From assembly GCA_934565655.1 (NCBI GenBank), contig CAKTIE010000033.1, positions 1-11,173 on the forward strand: 11,173 nucleotides of DNA, given 5' to 3'. Position numbers and translations under genes: made by a program. This document shows, one piece after another, positions 98 through 10,302 of this stretch; the first letter of the stretch is position 1, and every line of letters starts with the position of its first letter. The DNA comes from an uncultured Oscillospiraceae bacterium. Its GTDB lineage: Bacteria; Bacillota; Clostridia; Oscillospirales; Oscillospiraceae. Under the pieces are notes generated by a model. It searched no databases and was not told where the DNA came from. It saw only the letters and a program-made list of their open reading frames with translations.

Positions 98-1261
98 TTA
101 CTTAACGCCCAGATGGCTGGAGATGACCATACGCTGCACCTCGGAAGTGCCCTCGTAGATCTCGGTGATCTTCGCGTCGCGCATCATGCGCTCCACGGGA
201 TACTCACGGGTGTAGCCGTAACCACCGAACAGCTGGACAGCGCGGCGGGTCACATCGGAAGCGGCCTCGGCGGCGAACAGCTTAGCCATAGCGGCGTCAG
301 CGGAGTAGGGCTCGTGATTCTGCTTCTTCATAGCAGCGGAGTACACCAGATACTTTGCAGCCTCCATGCGGGTGTGCATGTCAGCCAGCTGGAACTGGGT
401 ATTCTGGAACTGGGAGATGCGCTTACCGAACTGGACGCGCTCCTTGGTGTACTTGACAGCCTCGTCAACAGCACCCTCGCCGATACCCAGAGCCTGGGAA
501 GCGATACCGATACGGCCGCCGTCCAAAGTCTTCATGGCGATCTTGAAGCCCTCGCCCTTCTTGCCCAGCATACGATCCTTGGGGATGACGCAATCCTCGA
601 AGATCAGATCGCAGGTGGAGCTGCCGCGGATACCCATCTTCTTCTCGTGCTTGCCCTGAGAGAAGCCCTTGTCGTCCTTCTCCACGATGAAAGCGGAGAT
701 CTCCTTCATGGTGCGGCCGCGCTTATCGGTGGTCTTGCCGGTGACGGCGATGATGACGAAGGTATCAGCCACGTTGCCGTTGGTGATGAAGCACTTGGAG
801 CCGTTCAGGATGTAGTTCTCGCCGGACTCATCCAGCACAGCGGTGGTCTGCTGACCCTGGGCGTCGGTACCGGCGCCGGGCTCGGTCAGACCGAAAGCAC
901 CGATCTTCTTGCCGGAGCACAGGTCGGGCAGATACTTCATCTTCTGCTCCTCGGTGCCGTTCTCAAAGATGGGGGCGGCGCACAGGGAGGTGTGAGCGGA
1001 CACGATAACTGCGGTGGTGCCGCAGACCTTGGCCAGCTCCTCAACGCACATAGCGTAGCTGAGGACGTCGGCGCCAGCGCCGCCGTACTCCTTGGGGAAG
1101 TAAATGCCCATCATGCCCAGCTTTGCCATCTTCTCGACGGTTTCCATGGGGAAACGCTCTTCCTCGTCGATTTCGGTGGCCAGGGGCTTGACCTCGTTCT
1201 CCGCGAACTCGCGGTACATCTTCTGAACGAGCAGCTGTTCCTTAGTCAGATGGAAATCCAT
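98..1261 (-). CDS. bcd: Short-chain acyl-CoA (butyryl-CoA) dehydrogenase
   Basis: FAD-dependent acyl-CoA dehydrogenase of 387 residues, the usual family length. It should reduce crotonyl-CoA to butyryl-CoA together with EtfAB in the cytoplasm. The first family signature is seen as GLTEPGAGTD near residues 124-133, and the second as QLFGGYGYTREYP near 345-357. The motif ITEIYEGTSEVQR near 365-377 contains the expected catalytic glutamate (about E370, the Glu of YEGT). The start ATG has an AAGGAG site 8 bases upstream and lies 24 bases after the hbd stop, so it is co-transcribed. Substrate length is inferred from operon context (crt, hbd, etfB); other short-chain acyl-CoAs are possible. Confidence 0.96.
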   Translation of the reverse strand: MDFHLTKEQLLVQKMYREFAENEVKPLATEIDEEERFPMETVEKMAKLGMMGIYFPKEYGGAGADVLSYAMCVEELAKVCGTTAVIVSAHTSLCAAPIFENGTEEQKMKYLPDLCSGKKIGAFGLTEPGAGTDAQGQQTTAVLDESGENYILNGSKCFITNGNVADTFVIIAVTGKTTDKRGRTMKEISAFIVEKDDKGFSQGKHEKKMGIRGSSTCDLIFEDCVIPKDRMLGKKGEGFKIAMKTLDGGRIGIASQALGIGEGAVDEAVKYTKERVQFGKRISQFQNTQFQLADMHTRMEAAKYLVYSAAMKKQNHEPYSADAAMAKLFAAEAASDVTRRAVQLFGGYGYTREYPVERMMRDAKITEIYEGTSEVQRMVISSHLGVK

Positions 1262-1285
1262 ACTATTTTCTCCTTTTCCAGAAAT

Positions 1286-2122
1286 TTACTTGTTGTAGTT
1301 AAAGAAGCCCTCGCCGGACTTGATGCCCAGCTTGCCGGCACGCACCATCTTGCGGATCAGCACGTTGGCACGGTACTTGCTGTCGTGAGTCTCGTTATAC
1401 AGCACGTCCATGATGTTCAGCACCACGTCCCAGCCGATCAGATCGCCCAGGTGCAGGGGGCCCATGGGGTGGTTGCAGCCCAGCTGCATAGCGATGTCGA
1501 TGTCCTCAGCAGAGGCGACGCCCTCCTGCAGGACGCAGACGCCCTCGTTGCAGTAGGGGATCAGGATCTTGTTGACCACGAAGCCAGGAGCCTCGTTGAC
1601 AACCACGGGGGTCTTGCCGATCTCGACGGACAGATTCTTGATGTAGTCCACCAGCTCAGCGGGGGTGTTGCCGCCGGCGATGACCTCGACCAGCTTCATA
1701 GCGGGCACGGGGTTAAAGAAGTGCATACCGATCAGGTTGTGCTTCAGACCCTGAGCCATCTCGGTGATGGACAGAGAAGAAGTGTTGGAAGCGAAGATGG
1801 CATCTTCCTTGCAGATGGCATCCAGACGGCCCAGCAGTTCCTTCTTGGTGGCCATGTTCTCGGCGACGCACTCGATGACCAGATCGGCATCGGCAGCAGC
1901 CTCGAACTCCTCGACCAGGACGCGGCTCATCAGATCATCAGCGGCTTCCTGAGTCATCTTGCCCTTGGCGACCTTCTTGTTCAGAGAGGCAGCCAGCTTG
2001 TCCTTATGACGCTGGGCGCTTGCCACGCTGGAAGCATACATCAGAGCGGTGTGGCCCTTAGCTGCGAAAACCTGGGCAATGCCGCTGCCCATAGTACCGG
2101 CACCAAATACTGCGACTTTCAT
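1286..2122 (-). CDS. hbd: 3-hydroxybutyryl-CoA dehydrogenase
   Basis: 278 residues, standard for the family. It interconverts acetoacetyl-CoA and (S)-3-hydroxybutyryl-CoA with NAD(P)H. The N-terminal Rossmann fold has GAGTMG at residues 7-12. ASNTSSLSITE (111-121) and GMHFFNPVPAMKLVEVI (132-148) hold the catalytic Ser/His region (His134), followed by NEAPGFVVNKIL and a C-terminal helical domain with NHPMGPL and KSGEGFFNY. I chose the ATG at 2122 and not the in-frame ATG at 2155: AGGAGG lies 7 bases before 2122, and the 11 extra residues would precede the first beta strand of the fold. Oddity: the acidic residue that usually ends beta strand 2 (R-D-I in relatives) is replaced by Y-A-S-S at 29-32, so the NADH/NADPH preference is uncertain. 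It lies 65 bases after crt. Confidence 0.95.
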   Translation of the reverse strand: MKVAVFGAGTMGSGIAQVFAAKGHTALMYASSVASAQRHKDKLAASLNKKVAKGKMTQEAADDLMSRVLVEEFEAAADADLVIECVAENMATKKELLGRLDAICKEDAIFASNTSSLSITEMAQGLKHNLIGMHFFNPVPAMKLVEVIAGGNTPAELVDYIKNLSVEIGKTPVVVNEAPGFVVNKILIPYCNEGVCVLQEGVASAEDIDIAMQLGCNHPMGPLHLGDLIGWDVVLNIMDVLYNETHDSKYRANVLIRKMVRAGKLGIKSGEGFFNYNK

Positions 2123-2147
2123 GTGTTTTCCTCCTATAATATATTGT

Positions 2148-2175
2148 TTAATCATCAGGCGAACCTGTTAATTAA
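2148..2175 (-). promoter_or_regulatory. RNA hairpin between crt and hbd
   Basis: On the minus-strand transcript a 4-bp CAGG/CCTG stem with a TTCG loop sits on a 7-bp A/U-rich stem, separated by one A.A mismatch. One pair of the outer stem is G.U and forms only in the minus-strand RNA. No U tract follows; the hbd ribosome binding site comes about 10 bases later. It may be an mRNA stability or processing element between cistrons. The structure is read by eye, not folded. Confidence 0.4.
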
Positions 2176-2187
2176 CGTGGGGTGAGC

Positions 2188-8905: not shown

Positions 8906-9826
8906 ATGCAGCATGCAACACTGGTGATCATGGCGGCCGGTATGGGCTCCCGTTACGGCGGCAACAAGCAGGTGGACGGCGTCGGCCCCCACGGCGAGAT
9001 CCTGATGAACTACGGCATCTATGACGCGGCCCGGGCCGGGTTCGATAAGGTGGTGTTCGTTATCAAGCCGGAGATCCGGGAGCTGATCCACCGTCTGGCA
9101 GGCGACGCTCTGGAGACGCTGCACACGCCGGACGGCCGCAAGGTGGAATTCTGCTATGCTGAGCAGACCTTCGACTCCGTGCCGGACTTCTATCATATCC
9201 CGGAGGGCCGCACCAAGCCCTTCGGTACGGCTCACGCGGTGCTGTGTACCCGCCCCTTTGTCCACGAACCCTTCTGCGTCATCAACGCCGACGACTATTA
9301 CGGCGTGGACGCCTACCGCACCATGTATGAGGCGCTCCAGACCCTGCCGGAGCAGGGCAAGGCCGTCATGGTGGGCTATCTTCTGAAAAACACCGTCAGC
9401 AAGTACGGCACCGTCACCCGCGGCGTATGCCACACGGCGGACGGCTGCCTGACCGATATCCGCGAGACTATGAAGATCCAGCAGTTCCCCGACGGCAGCA
9501 TCGCTGACATGGCGGACGGCACCCGCCGGGAGCTGGACGGCGACAGCGTGGTATCCATGAACTTCTGGGGCTTCTCCCCCGCCATTTATGAGGACATGGA
9601 GCGGTATTTCCACGATTTCCTTCACCATGTGGGGGACGACGTCAAGGCCGAGTGCCTGCTGCCCGCCATGGTGGGCGACCTGATGGACAAGGGCAGGCTG
9701 ACGGTCTCCGTGCTGCATTCCGCCGACCAGTGGTTCGGCATGACCTATCACGAGGATCGTCCCCGTGTGGCGGCGGCTTTGCAGAAGCTCCACGACGAGG
9801 GCGTGTATCCCGACAAGCTGGCGTGA
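8906..9826 (+). CDS. Sugar-phosphate nucleotidyltransferase-like protein
   Basis: 306 residues with an N-terminal NTP-transferase Rossmann fold. The nucleotide-binding loop is LVIMAAGMGSRYGGNKQ (residues 6-22), a variant of the usual GxGxRxxPxTxxxPK signature without the proline. GTAHAVL (107-113) and NADDYYG (127-133) supply the expected substrate loop and metal-binding aspartates. The enzyme would join an NTP to a sugar phosphate or similar alcohol phosphate, releasing pyrophosphate, in the cytoplasm; the substrate cannot be assigned. The ATG has AGGAGG 9 bases upstream. No sugar or choline-phosphate genes are next to it, so there is no pathway context. A GC-rich hairpin follows the stop. 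Confidence 0.84.
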   Translation: MQHATLVIMAAGMGSRYGGNKQVDGVGPHGEILMNYGIYDAARAGFDKVVFVIKPEIRELIHRLAGDALETLHTPDGRKVEFCYAEQTFDSVPDFYHIPEGRTKPFGTAHAVLCTRPFVHEPFCVINADDYYGVDAYRTMYEALQTLPEQGKAVMVGYLLKNTVSKYGTVTRGVCHTADGCLTDIRETMKIQQFPDGSIADMADGTRRELDGDSVVSMNFWGFSPAIYEDMERYFHDFLHHVGDDVKAECLLPAMVGDLMDKGRLTVSVLHSADQWFGMTYHEDRPRVAAALQKLHDEGVYPDKLA

Positions 9827-9836
9827 AAACAAACAA

Positions 9837-9868
9837 CAAGGCCGCGGAGTGCAGACTCCGCGGCCTTG
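9837..9868. terminator. GC-rich terminator hairpin, best in the minus direction
   Basis: A 14-bp perfect stem (9837-9850 with 9855-9868) and GCAG loop. On the minus strand it is followed by TTGTTTGTTTTC, a fair U tract, ending the small peptide gene. On the plus strand the exit is not T-rich, so termination of the nucleotidyltransferase transcript is less certain. Confidence 0.75.
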
Positions 9869-9901
9869 CCGGCGATACCCGATGTTTGTTTCCCTCTGCC
9901 G

Positions 9902-10018
9902 TCAGCGGCAGTTGGTGTTGTCCTTCGCGTTCTTGTTGTTCTTGGTATTCTGAGTGTTCTGGGTATTGTTCTGGGTGTTCTGTGCATCCTTGGTGTTCTT
10001 GCAATTCTTGTTTTCCAT
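9902..10018 (-). CDS. 38-residue Asn/Thr/Gln/Lys-rich small protein
   Basis: A short gene of 38 codons, beginning MENKNCKNTKDAQ and ending NAKDNTNCR. Thirteen residues are Asn, six Lys, six Thr and four Gln; the centre repeats N-T-Q. The only two cysteines, Cys6 and Cys37, sit close to the two ends. There is no membrane segment or signal peptide, and it should be disordered and very hydrophilic. Support for a real gene: a full AAAGGAGGT ribosome binding site (10027-10035) 8 bases before the ATG, a terminator about 35 bases after the stop, and a promoter candidate correctly placed upstream. I do not recognise the family. Low-complexity N-rich small proteins in spore formers are sometimes spore or coat components, which would fit the forespore-like promoter, but that is inference. 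Confidence 0.75.
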   Translation of the reverse strand: MENKNCKNTKDAQNTQNNTQNTQNTKNNKNAKDNTNCR

Positions 10019-10048
10019 GAATTTGCACCTCCTTTATTTGTGCAAGCC

Positions 10049-10078
10049 TAGCATTTCCCGCGAAAACGCCGCCTATGC
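10049..10078 (-). promoter_or_regulatory. Candidate forespore (sigma-G/sigma-F) promoter of the small N-rich gene
   Basis: On the minus strand GCATA (10074-10078) is followed after 18 bases by AATGCTA (10049-10055), close to the sigma-G -10 CATACTA at sigma-G spacing. Read as sigma-F, GGAAATGCTA (10049-10058) follows after 15 bases. No good sigma-A promoter is seen between this point and the gene. The leader would be only about 24 bases. Confidence 0.42.
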
Positions 10079-10111: not shown

Positions 10112-10140
10112 TTGACAAACCGGAAAGGAACAGGTATAAT
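10112..10140 (+). promoter_or_regulatory. Sigma-A promoter of infC-rpmI-rplT
   Basis: Perfect TTGACA (10112-10117), 17-base spacer and perfect TATAAT (10135-10140). Transcription should start near 10147. It is the best promoter in the window, as expected for a translation operon. Confidence 0.92.
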
Positions 10141-10141
10141 A

Positions 10142-10283
10142 CTTCTGCAAAACAAAGAAGGTCGGTGCATCCGCCTCACCTCCCGCCTAAGGCAAAGAGG
10201 TCAACAGCGAAGTTTCACAAAGACGCGTAAAAGCGGCTTTTTGGTGTTGCGCGGATGCATGATCGCATTCGCGTTTTATTTTT
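10142..10283 (+). promoter_or_regulatory. L20-type autoregulatory attenuator leader of infC-rpmI-rplT
   Basis: The 5' leader carries an intrinsic terminator: stem 10250-10258 with 10265-10273 (one G.U), loop ATGATC, then TTTTATTTTT. Its left arm also pairs perfectly with an upstream segment: 10166-10174 with 10251-10259, nine pairs plus a G.U. The two helices exclude each other, as in an attenuator. Inside the long helix are a local hairpin (10178-10182 with 10197-10201, capped by GCC/GGC), a helix 10202-10206 with 10245-10249, and a hairpin 10219-10240. In Bacillus this operon has an L20-binding leader that causes premature termination when free L20 is in excess; by position this is the same kind of element, but I could not match it to a covariance model. 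Confidence 0.8.
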
Positions 10284-10302
10284 GATTGGAGGTGCTTGTA
10301 GT

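Follow-up and report, generated by a model that had tools for sequence, protein, structure and literature searches.

The γ-type small acid-soluble proteins (SASPs) of Bacillus are 70–100 amino acids long, and one of them, SspE, is rich in Asn and Gln. The cleavage site of the germination protease GPR exists in an EFA form. It is also given as EIA in a report that proposes the γ-type SASPs as the amino-acid reservoir of Bacillus spores (PMC8452069), and two papers describe clostridia as devoid of γ-type SASPs (PMC3533761, PMC8452069). A different spore-formation protein, GerG of C. difficile, contains about 30% Asn, carries Asn-rich repeats and is predicted to be disordered. GerG is reported to gel in vitro at a concentration of about 200 μM and to affect germination; its repeats are dispensable for its function, its control depends on the mother-cell factor σE, and it is reported in C. 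difficile only (PMC5241399).

Here we describe a short Asn-rich gene lying upstream of infC in a window of 11,173 nucleotides (the whole stretch of DNA that was analysed) from an uncultured Oscillospiraceae bacterium, together with the 50-member family to which it belongs. Like SspE, these peptides are small, hydrophilic, rich in Asn and Gln, poor in hydrophobic residues and preceded by a forespore-type promoter. Unlike SspE, they are clostridial, measure 23–49 amino acids (median 36), match no Pfam or NCBIfam model and have no GPR site: no sequence of the E-I/F-A type occurs in the 50 members, whose 1831 residues include no Ile, Leu, Phe or Trp. Models of γ-type and other SASPs gave no match to the window peptide in Pfam or NCBIfam, and 16 family members matched no Pfam family of any kind. 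We therefore rejected homology to γ-type SASPs, as model match and GPR site are both missing and the length is half. The family shares with GerG its Asn-richness, repetitiveness and predicted disorder. However, GerG has Met/Pro-containing GMPNNMSNNMNSNM repeats and is under σE, whereas the Asn-rich family has a forespore-type promoter and 2.7% Met and 0.3% Pro; neither GMPNNMSNNMNSNM-type repeats nor mother-cell σE control was found for the 50 members. Finally, the α/β-type SASPs (PF00269) share their promoter class with the Asn-rich genes of these genomes but have no detected sequence similarity to the Asn-rich peptide, and they are encoded by a separate gene in 23 of the 25 genomes tested.

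Results

The window peptide, MENKNCKNTKDAQNTQNNTQNTQNTKNNKNAKDNTNCR, has 13 Asn among its 38 residues (34%) and Cys at residues 6 and 37; Pro and Gly are absent and the only Met is the start residue. The length, the Asn content and the Cys near each end had been named in the original prediction, as had a well-placed Shine-Dalgarno sequence (SD) and a terminator directly downstream, and both signals were confirmed (Table 1); the hairpin is followed, on the gene's own strand, by the T-rich tail TTTGTTTTCA. The gene converges on a nucleotidyltransferase gene (8906–9826, PF00483) and diverges from infC, the infC promoter standing back to back with the forespore-type one. At gathering threshold, no entry of Pfam, NCBIfam or Rfam covers it.

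Table 1. Positions in the window of the Asn-rich gene, its putative signals and the adjacent infC promoter
Feature	Position	Strand	Details
−10 element GGAAATGCTA, forespore-type (σF/σG)	10049..10058	−	12 of 13 consensus letters together with the −35 element
−35 element GCATA	10074..10078	−	15 nt from GG of the −10 element, 18 nt from AATGCTA (10055–10049)
ORF of the 38-aa Asn-rich peptide	9902..10018	−	ATG 10018–10016, TGA stop 9904–9902
Shine-Dalgarno AAAGGAGGT	10027..10035	−	8 nt 5' of the ATG
Intrinsic-terminator-like hairpin, 17 pairs	9834..9871	−	starts 30 nt past the stop
Divergent infC promoter TTGACA-N17-TATAAT (12/12)	10112..10140	+	context, outside the Asn-rich gene

We then used the IF-3 of the window as a query and compared the best 80 of 547 confirmed loci, labelled mostly Oscillospiraceae, Oscillibacter or Dysosmobacter. 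Seventy of these offered 900 nt upstream of infC, the other ten being too short for such a reading, and 49 of the 70 carry, on the minus strand, an N/Q-rich polar ORF that is short and preceded by an SD; the weakest of the 49 calls (L059) is doubtful. In the closest relative (L001, IF-3 92% identical), the contig ends within the locus, but a GCATA-N14-GGCAACACTA promoter, an SD and the first part of an Asn-rich frame can still be read, and L012 is a cut locus of the same kind. Cultured relatives that carry the gene are Oscillibacter sp. PC13, O. valericigenes An907, O. ruminantium GH1 and Oscillibacter sp. ER4 (L031, L034, L058 and L062). When all six frames of the window and its 80 related loci were filtered by composition, 31 ORFs of the loci and the window's own remained, every one of them upstream of infC on the minus strand, and none anywhere else in those loci. 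These locus-restricted survivors, together with the frame-preserving indels described below, led us to reject a chance ORF. The 50 sequences of the family were chosen by a strong SD and a polar composition, so that neither property is independent evidence in this set. A terminator-like site follows 39 of the 50 ORFs; this, and the convergent orientation of the downstream neighbour in the window, led us to reject a leader peptide. The claim that an unannotated but real gene lies here, and the synteny upstream of infC by which it was to be checked, are thus both borne out by the conserved frame, start, SD, gene order and terminator.

Asn and Gln make up 55.7% of the 1831 residues of the family (N 32%, Q 23%, K 10%, R 10%, E 9%, and M, G and P 2.7, 0.9 and 0.3%), with 1.95 nitrogen atoms per residue, and V, I, L, F, W and Y together account for six residues. 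A single His codon stands against 429 Gln codons, although the two are only a third-base transversion apart. A secreted or signal peptide was rejected, as a hydrophobic stretch is absent. Single-sequence AlphaFold returned a pLDDT of 56 with no secondary structure, which, like the composition, supports the disorder proposed earlier. Thirty-eight pairs were selected for the identity of their infC genes; they share loci and are non-independent. Of their 69 gaps, 67 have a length divisible by three, both exceptions coming from the single pair L053–L059. The original prediction had staked itself on a frame, start and SD conserved in relatives, and a conserved frame is what these indels point to. 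Changes at the three codon positions of these pairs numbered 237/140/326 in the Asn-rich ORF versus 243/153/1320 in infC, a weaker third-position excess than that of infC, and nonsynonymous changed codons (310) exceeded synonymous ones (162). The constraint therefore bears on composition rather than on exact sequence. A set of 24 pairs chosen for the similarity of their peptides, and so leaning to synonymous change, gave counts of 32/21/152.

Scored against the 13 letters that we take to be the σF consensus, the window promoter, read as GCATA-N15-GGAAATGCTA, has 12, a score met by 3 of 1500 dinucleotide shuffles of the 50 upstream regions; at least 11 of the 13 letters are found in 46 of these 50 regions versus 66 of the 1500 shuffles. 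The consensus of the family itself is GTATA, N14–15, GG-C-M-A-N-A-M-T-A, usually 34–37 nt 5' of the start codon, and the −35 element is immediately preceded by a minus-strand TGTCAA, in keeping with the divergent infC promoter, in 44 of the 50 members. A matrix trained on 44 of the family's sites was applied with a threshold of 10 bits, leaving out 9 of 24 SASP and 8 of 19 spoIIR loci that were cut off or had no start with an SD. This threshold was reached by 13 of the 15 testable α/β-SASP upstream regions of the same genomes (0.7% for shuffles), by none of the 50 infC upstream regions, and by 3 of 11 regions upstream of spoIIR, a σF gene, which is a weak showing. With 11.7 bits versus a family median of 24.7, the window promoter is among the weaker members. 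The Asn-rich gene thus has the conserved promoter class common to known forespore (σF/σG) genes of the same genomes. The original prediction of a forespore-type promoter, GCATA-N18-AATGCTA, holds up in the consensus score, the SASP-matching matrix and the composition-blind searches, and as judged by sequence, which does not separate the two factors, the promoter is one of σF or σG type. In C. difficile the two consensus sequences are reported to resemble each other, σF being marked by a conserved upstream G and σG by a conserved downstream A (PMC3789822).

The pattern GTATA-N14–15-GGNNANAMTA-N14–32-AAGGAGGT, which is blind to the protein, was searched with its reversed form as a control. In 26 genomes it gave six sites (control, none), five of which precede short N/Q-rich ORFs; three of these five are in genomes without such an ORF near infC, of which 3 in 22 carry the gene elsewhere. 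In 300 genomes of the taxonomic family of G030, 19 sites were found in 18 genomes, with no control match, and 16 of the 19 precede short N/Q-rich ORFs, three of these lying in the genomes, or having the peptide, of already known loci. Of the remaining three sites, one precedes a small Cys-rich protein that we take to be DUF1540-like, and the other two precede what we take to be DUF378-like and rubrerythrin-like proteins. Elsewhere in the genome, too, the Asn-rich gene is therefore found behind this promoter. Among 295 genomes of the order and 245 of the class (G030 apart), samples that carry no kinship labels, 11 sites were found, none of them N/Q-rich, and the reversed control gave one match per sample; as the pattern recovers only 12 of the 50 known members, this result sets bounds to the distribution and does not prove absence outside the taxonomic family.

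Searching for promoter plus SD is a simple route to such genes that makes no use of protein sequence. Searches by protein sequence are nearly useless here because the peptides are of low complexity: of 7970 candidates scored with an alignment as query, none reached E 0.01, a 42-aa relative gave no match and a 45-aa relative one unnamed protein. An HMM of 16 members matched 2 of 4 control genomes and none of 22 others, and is unable to prove absence because only half of the controls matched. The peptide escapes family models by being short and of low complexity, and no published description of the family was found by title or abstract in the literature searched, which was covered in part.

Some lineages are without the gene. 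Twenty of the 70 covered loci have no N/Q-rich ORF near infC, and in one more, L080, the gene lies at a distance of about 1 kb from infC. Missing sporulation was rejected as the cause, since σG-level matches are present in 20 of 22 genomes without the ORF near infC (45 of the 50 genomes tested); no genome of the 50 passed the curated cut-off of TIGR02850, and σG was judged by the score gap, most scores being about 386–439 bits, one a 260-bit piece at a contig edge, and other sigma factors at most 190 bits. The loci L015, L017 and L019, whose genomes still have σG-level matches, form a natural loss series in which the nucleotidyltransferase gene and infC are both kept and the Asn-rich ORF is lost. 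The gene is therefore useful but dispensable in evolution.

Discussion

With a conserved frame and composition, a forespore-type promoter of its own, a strong SD, a terminator and recurrence elsewhere, the Asn-rich ORF is very probably a genuine monocistronic gene of the forespore type. The expression, location and function proposed for its product are predictions drawn from these sequence features. We propose that RNA polymerase with σF and/or σG would transcribe the gene in the forespore and that the peptide, short, disordered and amide-rich, would accumulate in the spore core. There it would act as a hydrophilic filler and as a bulk, nitrogen-rich store of amino acids to be drawn on at germination. 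This is the role assigned to γ-type SASPs in Bacillus, which would here be reached with an unrelated sequence. We lean somewhat towards this explanation as a whole, the reserve/filler role being its uncertain step. More tentatively, and with doubt prevailing, one could imagine an unrecognised Oscillospiraceae class of composition-selected, amide-rich disordered forespore mini-proteins replacing the γ-type SASPs missing from clostridia, as a core nitrogen reserve or a gel-like glass. If made in spores, the Asn-rich peptide would be a candidate functional substitute for γ-type SASPs in abundant gut spore-formers.

The main rival to a reserve or filler is gel formation, in which the N/Q-rich peptides would self-associate in the spore core or beneath the inner membrane. 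The resulting gel or condensate might stabilise the dry core or retain partner proteins. GerG is a precedent for an Asn-rich spore protein that gels and influences germination, and the family matches GerG in N/Q-richness and repetitiveness; yet the GerG repeats are dispensable and mother-cell σE governs GerG, and the peptides are short with about one third of their residues charged (K/R/E/D), so that we consider a matrix role unlikely. The net charge of the 50 members, +1 to +5 with a median of +3, could instead suggest that the peptide, disordered and net-positive, binds to and covers DNA, RNA or ribosomes in the forespore. Such binding seems quite improbable to us, as the charge is low, K/R are interleaved with E/D, and nearly all genomes tested have α/β-type SASPs of their own.

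The original prediction also envisaged that the two Cys residues near the ends might cross-link the peptide. Cys near both ends recurs in L081 and L090, both at other genome positions, and Cys is the penultimate residue in 10 of the 50 members; however, 35 of the 50 have no Cys and three have two, so the Cys positions are not generally conserved and cross-linking is very improbable. The overall reading proposed earlier thus stands as to a real gene, a forespore-type promoter and disorder, and is not supported as to cross-linking as a general feature. We give still less credit to a functional forespore RNA, for example an antisense to the infC leader, with an incidental ORF. Transcription does diverge from infC close to its promoter, but indels preserve the frame, the composition is strict down to the avoidance of His codons, and the gene recurs away from infC.

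Two features are unexplained if the reserve/filler peptide we favour is merely a reserve, namely the penultimate Cys and a C-terminal KENRK tail found in 21 of the 50 members. For one group, the tail suggests a role beyond bulk storage.

Several minor observations were made beside the family. Around position 1500 of L150, L151, L152 and L154, four class-level genomes have GTATATGTCAAGGGTTTAGGGTAATAATAGG in common, a near-identical promoter-like block that precedes a gene starting MKYLYERVSYLRGL. Around position 1500 of L156, L157 and L093, small Cys-rich proteins, which we take to be DUF1540-like, are encoded downstream of the same forespore-type promoter and SD. In the window, the infC leader (10149–10286, plus strand) has a sub-threshold match to RF00558, the ribosomal protein L20 leader (28.9 bits versus a gathering threshold of 58.7, E 0.001), plausibly a divergent L20 leader. 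At 98–2967 on the minus strand, three adjoining ORFs resemble acyl-CoA dehydrogenase, 3-hydroxybutyryl-CoA dehydrogenase and crotonase, which we take to be a butyrate-pathway cluster. Antisense to the dehydrogenase genes runs a 690-codon open frame (113–2185, plus strand), probably a spurious one that GC-rich codon use has left open.
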